Positions 13,070 through 20,591 of a stretch of DNA of 55,212 nucleotides are shown piece after piece. Location of the stretch: assembly GCA_903873715.1 (NCBI GenBank), contig CAIQPS010000018.1, positions 1 to 55,212 of the forward strand, read 5' to 3'. The stretch is from an uncultured Actinomycetes bacterium (GTDB lineage Bacteria > Actinomycetota > Thermoleophilia > RBG-16-64-13). Both the position numbers and the translations under genes were made by a program. The notes under the pieces are model-generated. The model did not search any database. It was not told where the DNA came from and saw only the letters and a list, made by a program, of their open reading frames with translations. Position 1 is the first letter of the stretch, and each line of letters opens with the position of its first letter.

Positions 13070-13097
13070 CCCGACCGCACGTCCAAGGAAGGGTGTG

Positions 13098-15611
13098 ATG
13101 AACCCATCCCCCGCTCCCATACTTCCTTCGGTCCCGGAGCCGCTCCAGGGTCTCGTAGAACTCGCGCTCGATGTCCGCTGGGCCTGGAGCCATTCGGCCG
13201 ACGTCATCTGGGCTCGACTGTCTCCCGAACTGTGGGAGCGCACCCACAGCCCGTGGCACATCCTGCAGACCGTGGGCCGCGACCGGTTGGAGGAGTCCGC
13301 CCAGGATGCGGACTTCGTCGCCCTGGTCGAGCGGCACGTTGCGGACCGCGCCCGTCTTCTGGCCGCACGCTCCTGGTTCGCGCAGACGCACCAGGACCCC
13401 GCCGCCGGCCCCGAGGCCACCCCGCTCCTCGGCGAGATCGCCTACTTCAGCATGGAGTTCGGGCTCACGGAGGCTCTTCCCATCTACAGCGGCGGCCTCG
13501 GGATGCTGGCCGGCGACTACCTCAAGGCGGCCGGCGACCTCGGCGTCCCGGCAGTGGGTATCGGCATCCTCTGGCAGCAGGGGTACTTCCGCCAGGCGCT
13601 CAACGCGAACGGCGAGCAGATCGAGTTCTATCCGTTCAACGACCCCGGCCAACTGCCCATCGCCCCGCTGCGCGACAGCCACGGGGAGTGGGTGGGGGTA
13701 GACCTGAGCTTCCCCCGGCGGACGGTCCACCTGCGGGTCTGGGAGGTGAAGGCCGGGCGGGTGCGGCTCTACCTGCTCGACGCCAACGACCTGCTCAACA
13801 GCGCCGCCGACCGGGGCATCACCAGCGAGCTGTACGGCGGCGGGCCGGAGATGCGGCTGCAACAGGAGATGATCCTCGGAATCGGCGGATGGAAGGTCCT
13901 GCGGGCGCTCGGCATAGAGGCCGAGATCTGCCACCTCAACGAGGGCCACGCGGCATTCGCGGCCGTCGAGAGGGCCCGCTGTCACGCGGTAGACCACGGG
14001 ATCGACTTCGAAGAGGCGCTCATCGCCACCCGCGCGGGCAACATCTTCACCACCCACACCGCGGTGGATGCCGGTTTCGACCGTTTCCCCACCGAGCTGG
14101 TGCGCGAGTATCTCGGGGGCTACGCCCAGGAGTCGGGCATCAGCATCGAGCGGCTCCTCGGACTCGGCGCCGACGGTTCGGCCGGCATGTTCAACATGGC
14201 CTATCTGGCCATCCGCGTCAGCGGAGGAGTCAACGCGGTCAGCAGGCTGCACGGTGAGGTCAGCCGCCGCCTCTTCCAGCCGCTGTTCCCGCGCCGTCCG
14301 CAGGAGGAGGTGCCGGTGGGGCACGTGACCAACGGCGTGCACGTCCCGTCGTGGGACTCACCGGAGTCCGACGAGCTCTGGACCAGACTCTGCGGCAAGG
14401 AGCGCTGGCTCGGGGATCCCCGGGGGCTGGGCGAGCTCATACGCAGCGCCGGCGACGAGGAACTCTGGGCGTTCCGGGATACCTCCAGGCGGAAGCTCAT
14501 CGCGATGGCCCGCGACCACCTGCGCCGCCAGGGACCCATCGCCGGCAGTCTGGAAGCCCTGGGCTCGGACATCAACTGCCTCTGCGACCCGGGCGTCTTC
14601 ACCATAGGCTTCGCGCGCCGCTTCGCCACGTACAAGCGCGTGGACCTGCTCCTGCACGACCCTGCCCGCCTGGAACGAATCCTCTGCGGGCCTCAAAGCA
14701 GGGCCCAACTCATCCTGGCCGGCAAAGCCCACCCGGCCGACGGCACCGGCAAGGCGATGCTCAAGGAGTGGACCGACTTCATCGCGCGCTGCAACGTCCG
14801 GCCGCACGTCATATTCCTCGTCGACTACGACATGGACCTGGCGGAGCATCTCGTCCACGGCATCGACCTGTGGCTCAACACCCCGCGCCGTCCCTGGGAG
14901 GCGAGCGGCACGAGCGGCATGAAGGTGCTCGTGAACGGCGGGCTCAACCTATCGGAACTGGATGGGTGGTGGGCCGAGGCCTACGCGCCCGAAGTGGGCT
15001 GGGCGCTGGGAGACGGGTTGGAGCATGACGACGACCCCGCCGTGGACGCCGCGGAGGCGGAGCGCCTCTACGACCTGCTCGAGAACGAGATCATCCCCGA
15101 GTTCTACGACCGGGATGAGGCGGGGATGCCGCGCCGGTGGATATCCCGGGTGCGCGAGAGCATGGCCAGGCTCACTCCCGAGTTCTCGACCAACCGGATG
15201 CTCGACGACTACCTCACCCGCTACTACCTGCCGGCCGCCGCGGCCTACCGGGCCCGGGCGGAAGGCGACCACGTCCACTCCCTGCGGGCCTGGCTCGACG
15301 CCCTGGACGCTCACTGGGGCGACCTCGCTTTCGCAGGCTATGACGTGCGGACCACCAGTGCCGCCCACGAGTTCGAAGTGAAGGTGAGAGCGGGCCGGGT
15401 GCCGGCCGACGGCTTCCGGGTGGAGGTCTACGCGCAACCGGGTGAGGTCCACCTGCTGGAGCGGGACGGCGGCGACAAACAGGGCGTCTTCGTGTACCGG
15501 GGGTCCATCCCGGCCATCCGGCCCGCCGAGGACTACACGCCCCGGGTGGTGCCGTGGCACAAGGGCGCGAACGTACCGCTGGAGTGCGACCACATCCTCT
15601 GGTACCGGTAG
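13098..15611 (+). CDS. glgP: Alpha-glucan (glycogen/maltodextrin) phosphorylase, short GT35 form with DUF3417
   Basis: 837 aa from ATG 13098; a GTG at 13095 is directly adjacent. The AAGGAAGGG at 13085-13093 supports this start. The N-terminal DUF3417 (about 1-110) and catalytic core match the TIGR02094 alpha-glucan phosphorylase group. Motifs: EIAYFSMEFGLTEALPIYSGGLG near residue 115, HLNEGHAAFA, ARRFATYKR, and EASGTSGMKVLVNGG, which holds the pyridoxal-phosphate lysine. It releases glucose 1-phosphate from glucan non-reducing ends. The divergent partner malQ supplies transferase activity. Confidence 0.92.
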   Translation: MNPSPAPILPSVPEPLQGLVELALDVRWAWSHSADVIWARLSPELWERTHSPWHILQTVGRDRLEESAQDADFVALVERHVADRARLLAARSWFAQTHQDPAAGPEATPLLGEIAYFSMEFGLTEALPIYSGGLGMLAGDYLKAAGDLGVPAVGIGILWQQGYFRQALNANGEQIEFYPFNDPGQLPIAPLRDSHGEWVGVDLSFPRRTVHLRVWEVKAGRVRLYLLDANDLLNSAADRGITSELYGGGPEMRLQQEMILGIGGWKVLRALGIEAEICHLNEGHAAFAAVERARCHAVDHGIDFEEALIATRAGNIFTTHTAVDAGFDRFPTELVREYLGGYAQESGISIERLLGLGADGSAGMFNMAYLAIRVSGGVNAVSRLHGEVSRRLFQPLFPRRPQEEVPVGHVTNGVHVPSWDSPESDELWTRLCGKERWLGDPRGLGELIRSAGDEELWAFRDTSRRKLIAMARDHLRRQGPIAGSLEALGSDINCLCDPGVFTIGFARRFATYKRVDLLLHDPARLERILCGPQSRAQLILAGKAHPADGTGKAMLKEWTDFIARCNVRPHVIFLVDYDMDLAEHLVHGIDLWLNTPRRPWEASGTSGMKVLVNGGLNLSELDGWWAEAYAPEVGWALGDGLEHDDDPAVDAAEAERLYDLLENEIIPEFYDRDEAGMPRRWISRVRESMARLTPEFSTNRMLDDYLTRYYLPAAAAYRARAEGDHVHSLRAWLDALDAHWGDLAFAGYDVRTTSAAHEFEVKVRAGRVPADGFRVEVYAQPGEVHLLERDGGDKQGVFVYRGSIPAIRPAEDYTPRVVPWHKGANVPLECDHILWYR

Positions 15612-15709: not shown

Positions 15710-17095
15710 CTAGACCGCGGCCGGGAGCCTCACCTTGAAACGGGCGCCGGACCGGCCGGAATCCACCTCGACATCCCCGGACGCGGCCCGCGCCAGACGG
15801 CGGGCCAGTGACAGGCCCAACCCGGCCCCACGCACGGCGTTCCGCTCACCGGCGGCCGCGGTGCCCCGCACGCCCGGTTCGAAGATGCGCTCGCGTTCGT
15901 CCTCCGCCACGCCCGGACCGTCGTCCTCGACGAGGAAATAGACCTCTTTGCCGTTCCTGCCGGCCCCGAGAAGCACCTCGGCCTGAGCGAACCGGCAGGC
16001 GTTCTCCACCACCGGCTGCAGGATCTGGACGGCGATGGCCCTCTCCACTCCCACCCGCAGATCGCGGGCCGGAGGCTGCACGCGCACTTCCACGCCGTTC
16101 TCTTCGGCCAGGACCCCTATCGAGCTGATCACGTCTGCGAGCACCTGCCAGACGTCGGCCTTGCCGCGAGCCAGGCTGCCTTCATCCTGGGCGGCGGCCA
16201 ACAGAGCCTCGACGGTGCGCGCCATCTGGTCGGCGCTGTAGAGGACCGAGCCCAAGGCCTCCTGGTAGTACTCGGGATCGCGCGGGCGGCGGAGGGCCAG
16301 TTCGGCCTCGGCTTTGATCTTGGCCACGGGCGTCCGCAACTGGTGCGACACCTCGGCCGAGAAGCGCTGCTCACGGCGCAGGCTGGCCGCCAGCCGGTCG
16401 AGCAGGCCGTCGAGGGTGTGCGCCAACTGCGTGACCTCGTCGTGCGGCTCCCCGAGGTCGAAGCGGCGGTCGAGGTCCGCGGTGCTCCAGTCCTCCGCCT
16501 CGACGGTCATCTGCGATACCGGGCGGAAGGCGGCTCCGAGCGCCCAGCGGCCGGCGAAGCCCACGATGATGAGGAGCAGCGCGGTGAAGGCCGCCGTGGC
16601 GACCAGCGTGACCCTCTGGGTGCGGTAGATGGGGGCCATCGACACCCCGGTGACGATGGTGCCTATCGCGTTGTCGTTGTAGAAGAGACCGGTGGAGAAC
16701 AGACGGACGTCATGTCCGGGAACGTCCACGTACTTTCCCATCGTGCCGACGAGCGACTGCACGGCCGCCGCGATGTCGGGGTCCACAGTGGGACCGCTGA
16801 CCGTCTGGCCCTTCACGGACACCCACACCTGGGTGCCCCCGTCGGTCATGACACCGGTGGACTGCGGCACGCTCACCCCGTCCCCGCTCACGGCCACCAG
16901 CTTCGCCTCGTCCTGGCCCAGCTTCTGCAGCCGGGCGTTGGCATCCCGCGTCAGGGTGGTGGTGAGGACGAGGTTGAAGACCACCGTCATGGTCACCAGC
17001 GCGACGGCGACGGTCGCCAGCACGGCGAGCAGCAGGCGGTCGCGGACTCCCATCCGGGCGAAGGGGCGGCGTATCGTGCGCAGCACCGTTCCCAT
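15710..17095 (-). CDS. Sensor histidine kinase (HAMP, HisKA, HATPase_c)
   Basis: 461 aa. TM1 (about residues 20-45), an extracytoplasmic sensor region (about 45-155), TM2 (about 160-180), HAMP (about 180-235), dimerisation domain with the phospho-acceptor His near residue 250 in EVSHQLRTPVAKI, then a kinase domain with NACRFAQAEV (N box), DDGPGVAEDE (G1) and GAGLGLSLARRLA (G2). It lies 14 bp after the response regulator gene and forms one operon with it. The signal is unknown; the sensor region has no recognisable fold. Confidence 0.93.
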   Translation of the reverse strand: MGTVLRTIRRPFARMGVRDRLLLAVLATVAVALVTMTVVFNLVLTTTLTRDANARLQKLGQDEAKLVAVSGDGVSVPQSTGVMTDGGTQVWVSVKGQTVSGPTVDPDIAAAVQSLVGTMGKYVDVPGHDVRLFSTGLFYNDNAIGTIVTGVSMAPIYRTQRVTLVATAAFTALLLIIVGFAGRWALGAAFRPVSQMTVEAEDWSTADLDRRFDLGEPHDEVTQLAHTLDGLLDRLAASLRREQRFSAEVSHQLRTPVAKIKAEAELALRRPRDPEYYQEALGSVLYSADQMARTVEALLAAAQDEGSLARGKADVWQVLADVISSIGVLAEENGVEVRVQPPARDLRVGVERAIAVQILQPVVENACRFAQAEVLLGAGRNGKEVYFLVEDDGPGVAEDERERIFEPGVRGTAAAGERNAVRGAGLGLSLARRLARAASGDVEVDSGRSGARFKVRLPAAV

Positions 17096-17109: not shown

Positions 17110-17778
17110 TCAGCGGAGCGAGTACCCGACCCCGCGGACCGTGGCTATCTCGGGAGCGCCGGGCAGCGTGCCTATCTTCCGGCGCAGCCTGGCGATGTAC
17201 GCGTCGAGGGTATTGTCGTAGACGATCGCGCCGTGCGCCCAGGCCGTCTCGATGAGCACCTTCCGCCTGATGGCCTCGCCCGGCGATGCCGCCAACTTGG
17301 CCAGCAACCGGAACTCGGTGGGCGTGAGGGGCACCGTCACCCCTCCGGCTGACACGGCATGCTTGGCGGGATCGAGCACCAGGCCACCGACCTCCACGCC
17401 GCGCTCGGTGCCGCTGCGGCGGATGAGAGCCTCGAGCCGGGCGAGCAGCTCGGCGAAGGCGAAGGGCTTGGTGAGATAGTCGTCGCCGCCCACGTGGAAA
17501 CCGGAAAGACGATCGGAGAGAGCGTCGCGCGCGGTGAGGAAGAGCACGGGCGAGTTGATGCCCTGAGCCCGCAGCGCCTGGCAGACGTCGCGCCCGTCGG
17601 TGTCCGGCAGACCGATGTCGATGACGAACAGATCCGGCACCGCTTCGGCGACTCTGCGCAGCACTTCGGCACCCGTCGCGTAACCCTGGGCCTGGTAACC
17701 CTCTTCGCGAAGGCCCCGCACAAGCAGGGACCGCATCTGCGGGTCGTCTTCGAGCACGAAGATCTGTGGCTCCATCAT
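17110..17778 (-). CDS. Response regulator, OmpR/PhoB family
   Basis: 222 aa. The receiver has the acidic pocket EDD at residues 10-12, phospho-acceptor Asp54 in VIDIGLP, Thr82 and Lys104 in YLTKP. The C-terminal winged helix includes LTPTEFRLLAKLA and YIARLRRKIG, followed by the family-typical VRGVGYSLR end. ATG codons lie at 17778 and 17775. It is the first gene of the two-component operon. A tandem 11-bp repeat of the kind bound by this family lies about 300 bp upstream at 18068-18089, suggesting autoregulation. Confidence 0.93.
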   Translation of the reverse strand: MMEPQIFVLEDDPQMRSLLVRGLREEGYQAQGYATGAEVLRRVAEAVPDLFVIDIGLPDTDGRDVCQALRAQGINSPVLFLTARDALSDRLSGFHVGGDDYLTKPFAFAELLARLEALIRRSGTERGVEVGGLVLDPAKHAVSAGGVTVPLTPTEFRLLAKLAASPGEAIRRKVLIETAWAHGAIVYDNTLDAYIARLRRKIGTLPGAPEIATVRGVGYSLR

Positions 17779-17787
17779 GGTCTCAGT

Positions 17788-17793
17788 AGTATC
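17788..17793 (-). promoter_or_regulatory. Candidate proximal -10 of the two-component operon
   Basis: GATACT on the minus strand lies 9 nt before the ATG at 17778 (12 nt before the second ATG). It predicts a transcript with almost no leader. No ribosome-binding site is visible before the start codon, which fits. Confidence 0.35.
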
Positions 17794-17886
17794 ACCCGCG
17801 CAGCAGCCAGGGACAAGGCGGTGGGCGAGCAGGCCGTCAGAAAGACGAGGCGGAAAAGCCGGAGGGAGGAGGGCTTAGTGAGGATT

Positions 17887-18038
17887 CACACGGCGGGCGC
17901 GGCGTCCGGATGTCCCGGACGCCGCAAACGCCGTCTCCGCCGTGTGGGCGTGGTGGTGTCTCGCCCCGGTCTGGGTCCGACAGCCACCGGACAGGGTTGG
18001 GGCCACAGCTCAGGAGGGGGGTTGAGCAATGCTGTGTG
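17887..18038 (-). ncRNA. Candidate structured leader or small RNA between the two-component operon and the GGDEF-EAL gene
   Basis: This gene-free stretch contains three consecutive inverted-repeat units. The first is nested: CACACGGCGG (17887-17896) pairs perfectly with CCGCCGTGTG (17937-17946), and inside it GCGGCGTCCG (17899-17908) pairs perfectly with CGGACGCCGC (17916-17925). The second has GCCCC (17963-17967) with GGGGC (17999-18003) and an inner GTCCG/CGGAC. The third has CACAGC near 18004 with GCTGTG near 18031. A TATACT box at 18054-18049 would drive leftward transcription through all of it towards the regulator gene. It matches no riboswitch consensus I know. The strand is inferred from the promoter. 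Confidence 0.4.
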
Positions 18039-18048
18039 ACTCCATGCG

Positions 18049-18056
18049 AGTATATT
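18049..18056. promoter_or_regulatory. Overlapping -10 boxes: TATACT (-) and TATATT (+)
   Basis: AGTATATT gives TATACT on the minus strand (18054-18049) and TATATT on the plus strand (18051-18056). Leftwards the tandem repeat at 18068-18089 occupies the place of a -35, about 13 nt upstream, as in PhoB-type activated promoters. Rightwards the leader to the GGDEF-EAL start would be about 120 nt. Confidence 0.45.
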
Positions 18057-18067
18057 GGCACCCCTTT

Positions 18068-18089
18068 CCTGAAATCATCCTGAAAGCAT
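18068..18089. promoter_or_regulatory. Tandem 11-bp direct repeat, probable OmpR/PhoB-family operator
   Basis: CCTGAAATCAT is followed immediately by CCTGAAAGCAT, 10 of 11 bases identical. Head-to-tail sites with an 11-bp period are what OmpR/PhoB-family dimers bind. It lies between the OmpR-type operon and the GGDEF-EAL gene. The link to this particular regulator is inference. Confidence 0.5.
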
Positions 18090-18182
18090 TTCCCGCATTT
18101 TCCGGCCTCTCCGGGGCGTCTCGGCGCCCGATACTTCAGTCTTCGACACCTAATGCCGAAAAGACAGGTAGAGAGGACACAT

Positions 18183-20591
18183 TTGAACATCGACTACACA
18201 CCATCGGTCTGGTTCCTGGTGGGCGGGTTGCCCTTGGCGGCCTACCTGCTGTGGAGTGGATGGAGGCACCGGGGCAAACCCGGCGCCGTGCCTTTCCTCG
18301 TGCTGATCTCCCTGTCGACGGCATGGGTCGTCGGTTCGATACTCGAGCTCCTGTCCGCCAGCCTGCCTGTCAAGGTGCTCTGGGCCGACTTCCAGTACCT
18401 GCCCATCTGCTTCGTCCCGGTCACGTGGGTGGCGCTGGCCTTGGACTACACCGGCCATCGCGCGCTGCTCACCCGCCGCAACGCGGTCCTGATGTGCCTG
18501 CTGCCGCTCATCATGCTCGGTCTGCAATGGACCAACGTGCACCACCACCTGATGCGGGCTAGCGTGTGGCTCGACACCTCCAGCAGCCACCCGGTCATCG
18601 GCAGGACGTTCGGTCCCATGTTCTGGATCCACGTCGCATACAGCTACGTCCTGATCGTCGTCGCCATGGCCCTCCTGCTCCACTTCGTGCTCAGCCGGCC
18701 GCCGATGTTCCGCAAGCAGCCCGCCCTGCTGTTCGTGGGGTTCGCGGTGCCCTACATCTGGAACGTGATGTTCGTCCTCATCCGGCCCAGTTGGATGCCG
18801 GCGTTCGACTACACGCCCGCTCTCTTCGCGGTCGGGGAGATGTTCGTGGCTTATTCGCTGTTCAGGCTGCACATGTTCGATCTCGTGAACGTGGCCCGCG
18901 ATTCGATCATGGAGAACATGACGGACGGCTTCCTGGTCCTGGACCACCAGGGTGTCGTGCTGGACATCAACGAGGCCGCCCGCAGCATCATCGCCCGGCC
19001 TGTGCACGACATCCTGGGAGAGCCCATCGCCGATTCGTGGCTGGCGTGGGACGAGGTGGCCCGGTCGTTCGACACGGAAGACGGGACCGCCATGATAAGC
19101 CTCACCTTGGACGGGAGACGCCGGGACTTCGAGATCGGATGCTCCCATCTGGCCGGCAGTCCGGACGTGAGCGGCCGGGTGCTCGTCATGCACGACGTCA
19201 CCGAACGGTCGGCCCTGGAGGACAGTCTGCGGCTCCAGGCCCTCACCGACGGCCTGACCGGCCTGCCGAACCGGACGCTTTTCATGGCCAAACTGGGGGA
19301 CGCCGTCCACGTCTCCCGACGGTACGCCAACAAGCTGTTCGCGGTCATGGTCATCGACGTCGACCGGTTCAAGTTCATCAACGACACCATCGGCCATCCG
19401 GCAGGTGACGCCGTCCTGGAGACGGTGTCCCTGCGCTTGAAGCGGTGCGTGCGCGAAGCCGATACCGTCGCTCGCCTGGGCGGCGACGAATTCCTGGTGC
19501 TACTCAGCGAGATCAGCGACGTACGCGACGTGGTCGTGGTGTCGGAGCGCATCCAGGACGAGATGCGGGCGCCCATGTACGTGCGCCAGCAGCAGATGTT
19601 GGTGAGTGTGAGCGTGGGCGTTGTCATCTGGGACACCTCGTACCGGGACGCAGAGGACCTGCTCCATGCCGCCGACACGGCCATGTACCAAGCGAAAGCC
19701 GCCGGTGGGGGTTGCTACCGCATCTTCGACGAGCGCATGCACAGGGCCATGCTCGAGTCCATCCAGGCGGAGGCGGAACTGAGGGAAGCGGTCGAGAAGG
19801 AAGACTTCCAGCTGGAGTACCAGCCGGTGATAGACCTCGCCACCCAGGAGATAGTCTCTCTCGAAGCGCTCGTCCGCTGGCAACACCCCAACCGGGGGGT
19901 AATACCGCCCAACTCGTTCATCGGCATCGCCGAGACCAGTGGCTTGATAGTGCCCCTCGGGGACATGATCATCGACCAGCTCTGCCGGCAGCTCAGCCAG
20001 TGGCGCTCCCGCACCTGCCCGGCGTTCGGCCTGCCCGTGAGCCTGAACATCTCGCCCCGGCAACTCACCGACACCGACTTCGTGGGCACCATCCTCAACC
20101 GCATGACCGAGTGGCACCTCTCGCCCGGCAGTCTGATGTTCGAGATAACCGAGGCGGCGCTCAACCGCGATGCGGTCCGGGCCAAGAACGCCATCAAGGA
20201 GCTGTGCACCCTGGGCATGCGGGTCTGCCTGGACGACTTCGGCACCGGGCCTTCGTCCCTCCACCACCTCATGACCTTCCCCGGCCAGGAGATCAAGCTC
20301 GACTGCGCACTGATCTCGCGCCTCAAGGACGAGTCCGCCGAGCTGGCGCTGGCCCGCGCGATCACCGACCTCGCCCACGCGCTGCAACTCGTGGTGATCG
20401 CCGAAGGCGTCGAATCCGAGCGGGACTGGGGGCTCCTGAAGGAGCTGGGTTGCGACCGGGCCCAAGGCTTCTACAGCGGGGAGCCGATGCGGCCCGACCT
20501 TCTCCTCGACTATCTAGCGGAGCGGCGGCCACCAGGAGGGAACGTCGAGGTCCTCAGACGGAGGACTCGGCGCCCGCGGCCCAGCGCCTAG
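18183..20591 (+). CDS. Membrane-bound diguanylate cyclase/phosphodiesterase (7TM-PAS-GGDEF-EAL)
   Basis: 802 aa from TTG 18183. GAGAGG at 18171-18176 sits 6 nt before it; the ATG at 18153 has no ribosome-binding site. Domains: an N-terminal membrane region resembling the histidine-kinase 7TM domain (about 1-225), PAS (about 235-340), GGDEF with intact RLGGDEF near residue 432, and EAL with intact SLEALVRWQHP near residue 560. Other EAL residues are kept (LNISPRQL, EITEAAL, CLDDFGTG, AEGVES), though GYSSL is GPSSL and the loop-region Lys-Ile-Asp is KLD. Both synthesis and breakdown of cyclic di-GMP are possible. The 3' end overlaps the convergent gene by 4 bp. Confidence 0.9.
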   Translation: MNIDYTPSVWFLVGGLPLAAYLLWSGWRHRGKPGAVPFLVLISLSTAWVVGSILELLSASLPVKVLWADFQYLPICFVPVTWVALALDYTGHRALLTRRNAVLMCLLPLIMLGLQWTNVHHHLMRASVWLDTSSSHPVIGRTFGPMFWIHVAYSYVLIVVAMALLLHFVLSRPPMFRKQPALLFVGFAVPYIWNVMFVLIRPSWMPAFDYTPALFAVGEMFVAYSLFRLHMFDLVNVARDSIMENMTDGFLVLDHQGVVLDINEAARSIIARPVHDILGEPIADSWLAWDEVARSFDTEDGTAMISLTLDGRRRDFEIGCSHLAGSPDVSGRVLVMHDVTERSALEDSLRLQALTDGLTGLPNRTLFMAKLGDAVHVSRRYANKLFAVMVIDVDRFKFINDTIGHPAGDAVLETVSLRLKRCVREADTVARLGGDEFLVLLSEISDVRDVVVVSERIQDEMRAPMYVRQQQMLVSVSVGVVIWDTSYRDAEDLLHAADTAMYQAKAAGGGCYRIFDERMHRAMLESIQAEAELREAVEKEDFQLEYQPVIDLATQEIVSLEALVRWQHPNRGVIPPNSFIGIAETSGLIVPLGDMIIDQLCRQLSQWRSRTCPAFGLPVSLNISPRQLTDTDFVGTILNRMTEWHLSPGSLMFEITEAALNRDAVRAKNAIKELCTLGMRVCLDDFGTGPSSLHHLMTFPGQEIKLDCALISRLKDESAELALARAITDLAHALQLVVIAEGVESERDWGLLKELGCDRAQGFYSGEPMRPDLLLDYLAERRPPGGNVEVLRRRTRRPRPSA

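Follow-up and report, generated by a model that had tools for sequence, protein, structure and literature searches.

Does a promoter that points at a two-component operon necessarily serve that operon? In the window (the whole GC-rich, 55 kb stretch of DNA analysed here) this question arises at positions 18049 to 18089, where the initial annotation had described an activated promoter through which an OmpR-family regulator very likely activates its own operon. The reading that we favour, with a probability of about three in four, is that the regulator activates a three-hairpin small RNA from a TTCAGG box, with the operon transcribed from a promoter of its own and the circuit linked to glycogen.

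A tandem repeat in place of a -35 element

Re-reading of the sequence upheld the annotated coordinates and spacing. On the minus strand from 18089, an 11-bp repeat ATGCTTTCAGG (18089-18079; core TTCAGG 18084-18079) is directly joined to a second one, ATGATTTCAGG (18078-18068; core TTCAGG 18073-18068), and 13 nt (18067-18055) separate the pair from the -10 hexamer TATACT (18049-18054, minus strand). A sigma-70 promoter scan gave no -35/-10 pair at the site, as expected if the -35 element is missing, and the 11-bp direct repeats that take its place before the -10 are the arrangement found in activated promoters of the OmpR/PhoB type. The next gene leftwards is, as annotated, that of an OmpR-family response regulator (RR; 17110-17778, minus strand), with Response_reg and Trans_reg_C domains (Pfam PF00072 and PF00486, above cut-off); a sensor histidine kinase with HisKA, HATPase_c and weak HAMP domains is encoded at 15710-17095 on the same strand. 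Tandem 11-mers are not rare alone, the window holding 25 matches with up to two mismatches compared with 6-34 in first-order shuffles. The repeats are therefore unremarkable by rarity and the weight of evidence falls on their conservation. Defined as TTCAGG-N5-TTCAGG, the exact box has a single occurrence in the whole genome to which the window belongs, namely the present site.

The box accompanies orthologues of the regulator

Five relatives (G017, G015, G010, G008 and G001) each have a close RR orthologue, with 82-86% identity, and four of these are also available as MAG contigs (JAAYJE010000062.1, MELN01000007.1, JAJFUK010000085.1 and CAKZRW010000120.1; MELN01000007.1 is Actinobacteria bacterium RBG_16_64_13). 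The box is kept in all five, where GTTCAGG/ATTCAGG repeats and a -10-like hexamer occur in the same register; the -10 column of the alignment is occupied by CATAC-, CATGC- or CATAT-like hexamers in relatives and paralogues. The initial annotation had also proposed a search for the repeat upstream of orthologues. Allowing one mismatch and up to 900 nt upstream, we observed the box at 10 of 14 distinct close RR orthologues, which span 52-100% identity, and at none of 24 other RR loci. Box-positive orthologues include those of 70%, 59%, 55% and 55% identity, from other families and from Planotetraspora, and among the four without a box nearby is that of G020, where two exact copies lie no more than 8 kb from the RR gene. 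The comparison draws on draft assemblies, of which several are MAGs, and copies related by descent do not count as independent tests. Because of the contrast between close orthologues and other RR loci, comparison identifies the TTCAGG box as very probably the site of the adjacent RR. The RNA described below occurs in seven family genomes, in which the exact box is present 19 times and the reversed pattern twice.

The box shares the 11-bp plan of PhoB/PhoP-type boxes, and G016, one of these seven genomes, carries it together with three copies of the RNA although no close RR orthologue was found there. Both points would suit the binding site of another regulator, for example of the Pho type, lying beside the two-component system by accident. 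We regard this as improbable: in several families the box occurs specifically close to members of this orthologous group of RRs, and no phosphate gene was seen behind any of the 19 exact boxes. The missing RR in G016 may reflect an assembly gap or loss; its assembly is fragmented, and a close copy of the glycogen phosphorylase gene (glgP) linked to the two-component system was not found there either. We retain the adjacent RR as the protein that would recognise the box.

A predicted, conserved and structured RNA between the box and the regulator gene

The block of 157 nt between the box and the RR gene (17887-18043, minus strand) is a predicted small RNA, judged by its conservation and fold, with a start at about 18043-18041. 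Its identity is 83-99% in each of the fifteen pairings of the six genomes, against 71-82% for the RR coding DNA and 22-54% for fourfold sites in the same genomes. It also folds much better than shuffled sequences, with z = -3.8 in the window and -2.1 to -4.9 across the six orthologues. Indels of 1 nt between genomes within the block argue against a coding sequence, and we take the block to be noncoding.

Three hairpins are predicted on the minus strand. Hairpin 1 (18002-18040) has the stems GUCACA/UGUGGC and GCUCA/UGAGC and the loop ACCCCCCUCC (18022-18013), containing CCCCCCUCC, the sole C-rich loop among the hairpins of the block. Hairpin 2 (17952-17988) pairs GGUGG(C)UGUC with GACACCACC and corresponds to the terminal hairpin of the stand-alone copies described below. 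Hairpin 3 (17887-17946) runs CACACGGCGG...CCGCCGUGUG with an inner GCGGCGUCCGG stem and is likely the 3' end and terminator; we infer termination here, since no U tract follows the hairpin, nor does one in the orthologous RNA. Searching the intergenic region against Rfam returned no family and chance matches only. In the window region no match to the 6C family appeared even at E values as high as 5, and at the paralogue loci none reached gathering score. The block is thus, on sequence evidence, a predicted small RNA gene, previously uncatalogued and strongly conserved.

The two-component operon probably has a promoter of its own

The RR gene is preceded by a -35 element, TTGTCC (17811-17816), and a -10 element, GATACT (17788-17793), both on the minus strand. 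The pattern TTGTNN-N17-SATACT is found in 6/6 close orthologues, with 9 nt between its -10 hexamer and the ATG, and GATACT or CATACT just before the start recurs in orthologues of 59-70% identity (L028-L031). Since this pattern is conserved before the RR start codon, the predicted route is that the two-component operon is most likely transcribed from the RR gene's own promoter, leaderless or nearly so. Read-through from the small RNA promoter into the RR gene is possible, given the missing U tract.

The claim that the regulator activates its own operon therefore stands in part. An OmpR-family site, very probably that of the adjacent regulator, does replace the -35 of a leftward promoter; the operon as its main product was not upheld, as the transcript would start with the 157-nt structured RNA and a separate conserved promoter precedes the RR gene. 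A promoter can face a regulator gene without serving it. The annotated scheme, in its simplest form, would be a single long RR-kinase transcript in which the block is a cis-acting leader, either an attenuator or a riboswitch. The position of the block, 5' of the RR gene and on the same strand in 6/6 close orthologues, fits a leader, as does the end of hairpin 3 without a U tract, but the RR's own conserved promoter does not, nor does the distance from block to RR gene, which varies greatly among genomes; six diverged copies, moreover, terminate in strong hairpins and are not followed by an RR gene. We consider a leader rather unlikely, and a separate small RNA gene the better account.

Diverged stand-alone copies of the RNA

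A DNA search detected pieces of the block in G016, all with one layout: 13-14 nt separate TTCAGG-N5-TTCAGG from a -10-like hexamer, and a C-rich hairpin is followed by a terminal one. Altogether six diverged stand-alone copies were recognised, three in G016 and one each in G010 (contig C190), G017 (C161, in which the 5' hairpin differs) and G001 (C24, in which the second half-site is TTCATG), and all retain the promoter plan and hairpin 2. They are intergenic, the next genes being convergent or distant. Across 12 copies, hairpin 2 has two-sided changes at 9/9 pairs and 107 of 108 pairs are standard, figures that are counts on arms paired by hand and not a blind test. The RNA has its own promoter, a conserved structure and no coding sequence, and occurs apart from a cis gene, all of which are properties of trans-acting small RNAs.

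Using a sequence model of the RNA (R1) at E <1e-11, members were detected in only seven genomes of 199 relatives, namely the six with a close RR orthologue and G016. No convincing further member was found in 396 phylum-wide genomes; weak R1 matches (E about 1e-3 and above; those in G134 and G136 were inspected) were not accepted as members. Dispersal of several copies in G016 might also suggest repetitive DNA of the REP or mobile type with no RNA function. This is very unlikely indeed, as the diverged copies preserve both pairing, through two-sided changes, and promoter register, and the window's own genome has the RNA in single copy. The RNA copies are a predicted family of small RNA genes.

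Two further features were noted in G010 and G016. A c-di-GMP-I-GGC riboswitch (RF03167, above gathering score) is located at 1926-2007 of L118 (G010, C190), some 1.3 kb upstream of a second small RNA copy. In G016, the contig ends at L113 2893-2912 (C25) and L162 1-17 (C19) overlap by 17 nt inside a box, and a gene with MscS-like transmembrane helices lies downstream of that box.

Genes behind the box point to glycogen

Of the 19 exact boxes counted across the seven genomes, 11 drive RNA copies and 5 precede a gene for a conserved 90-aa protein, whose ATG is a constant 67-68 nt from the box in all five cases. This protein (MRVSQTANALEHDYLRALYELAG...; L117 3105-3374 in G010, and L110, L114, L116 and L107) had no Pfam or NCBIfam match and is possibly a small winged-helix protein. 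In 4/5 cases its gene is followed by a second alpha-glucan (glycogen) phosphorylase gene (glgP2), the fifth being a contig end. Another alpha-glucan (glycogen) phosphorylase gene (13095-15611, plus strand) lies beside the two-component genes in the window; four relatives share this synteny, and in G001 the two-component genes adjoin that of 4-alpha-glucanotransferase. The box before the glgP2 operon, together with the position of the two-component genes beside glgP or 4-alpha-glucanotransferase, ties the circuit to alpha-glucan metabolism, and we infer that it probably serves alpha-glucan (glycogen) use. No box was found at the glgP paralogues of the window's own genome, where only the small RNA copy retains the exact form.

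The genes that the box drives differ in other families, an example being that of a membrane protein in G021, which we take to be COG4705-like. The window's own genome also has two box-like sites with one mismatch, the first beside a moeA-like gene and the second before a TetR-like gene, which we set aside as weak; the second (L213 2624-2640, C146, minus strand) has a third weak repeat before the TetR-family gene. An exact box also occurs in G022, of the same class, at about 1910 of L130, directly before TATAAT and an apparent tmRNA gene, which may be chance.

Proposed mechanism and candidate targets

In the proposed circuit, the phosphorylated RR would occupy the two half-sites as a head-to-tail dimer, stand in for the missing -35 element and recruit RNA polymerase to TATACT. 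Transcription would start leftwards at about 18042 and yield the three-hairpin RNA of ~157 nt. Hairpin 1 would expose ACCCCCCUCC for pairing with G-rich Shine-Dalgarno regions, most likely repressing translation of the target mRNAs. In relatives, the same box would drive the extra small RNA copies and the operon of the 90-aa protein and second glycogen phosphorylase.

The loop sequence CCCCCCUCC is similar to CCUCC, the anti-Shine-Dalgarno sequence of 16S rRNA, and could mask ribosome-binding sites that are rich in G. The loop's 11-mer complement was found at no start site in the window's own genome, and a search with the exact loop complement matched mostly the RNA gene itself, with one start-site match, in G008. 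This is the near-perfect complement CAGGAGGGGGGGTTG (L185 1500; G008 C1:373321-373331, minus strand), located where a gene begins that its sequence identifies as encoding a 2-oxoacid:ferredoxin oxidoreductase subunit, and we keep it as a lead, the best single target candidate. Duplex energies at start codons in the window were mostly background; malQ, whose start codon is uncertain, fell in the 1% tail. Overall, target prediction yielded a few weak leads and no convincing target.

Comparison with known systems

A close parallel is with the csRNAs of streptococci, which are controlled by CiaR through a TTTAAG-N5-TTTAAG box and are complementary to the Shine-Dalgarno sequence and AUG (PMC3091779, PMC8186281). 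As in that system, an OmpR-type regulator is paired with a hexamer-N5-hexamer direct repeat upstream of a -10 element, and several small RNA copies per genome occur together with protein genes; complementarity to the Shine-Dalgarno sequence, established for the csRNAs, is here predicted. Unlike the CiaR system, the box is TTCAGG-N5-TTCAGG rather than TTTAAG-N5-TTTAAG, the distance to the -10 is 13 instead of 10 nt, and the C-rich RNA has another sequence and structure and belongs to an unrelated phylum.

The C-rich loops of mycobacterial 6C/B11 repress eccB4 via its ribosome-binding site (PMC10470900). The present RNA is likewise actinobacterial with a C-rich hairpin loop that, as B11 does, may pair with G-rich ribosome-binding sites, but in contrast to the two C-rich loops of B11, and to the two-hairpin form of 6C, its C-rich loop is in hairpin 1 only. 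To our knowledge, no OmpR-type box is known for B11. Mcr7 of Mycobacterium tuberculosis is a noncoding RNA that depends on PhoP (PMC4038636). Here too an actinobacterial OmpR-family regulator is combined with a noncoding RNA, although regulator and RNA both differ. Mcr7 is a single RNA and is not known to adjoin the regulator gene. Class II promoters of the OmpR/PhoB type, such as the pho box, also have 11-bp direct repeats replacing the -35, but differ in recognition sequence and regulon content.

A literature search found no report of the TTCAGG-N5-TTCAGG box or of the RNA. With odds somewhat better than even, we propose an undescribed small RNA family of an uncultured actinobacterial lineage, under a dedicated two-component system via a csRNA-like box. 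This would be an independent counterpart of CiaRH and the csRNAs, in which the RNA beside the regulator gene is under stronger constraint than that gene itself and glycogen phosphorylase shares a regulon with anti-Shine-Dalgarno small RNAs. A two-component system from a lineage that has seen hardly any experimental work would thereby gain a defined binding motif, a regulon and a new RNA family, and the comparison suggests that an OmpR-type regulator with a set of anti-Shine-Dalgarno small RNAs arose separately in Firmicutes and Actinobacteria.

The divergent GGDEF-EAL gene

On the other side of the site lies the divergent gene of a 7TM-PAS-GGDEF-EAL protein (18153-20591, plus strand; alternative start TTG at 18184 with AGAGAGGA). 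Joint control of this gene had been suggested from a plus-strand TATATT, linking the two-component signal to cyclic di-GMP. The hexamer is present (18051-18056) but is not conserved. In 2/6 genomes, those of the window and G015, the gene is the immediate divergent neighbour; in G017, G010 and G001 it is in the neighbourhood, ~2 kb or more away, with an ABC-transporter gene intervening in G010, and around the G008 locus it was not detected. Control of this gene from the site is accordingly doubtful, with long odds against it, and with its position so variable among the six genomes the cyclic di-GMP link is possible but not supported. A plus-strand GATACT (18130-18135), nearer the start of the GGDEF-EAL gene, offers an alternative -10.
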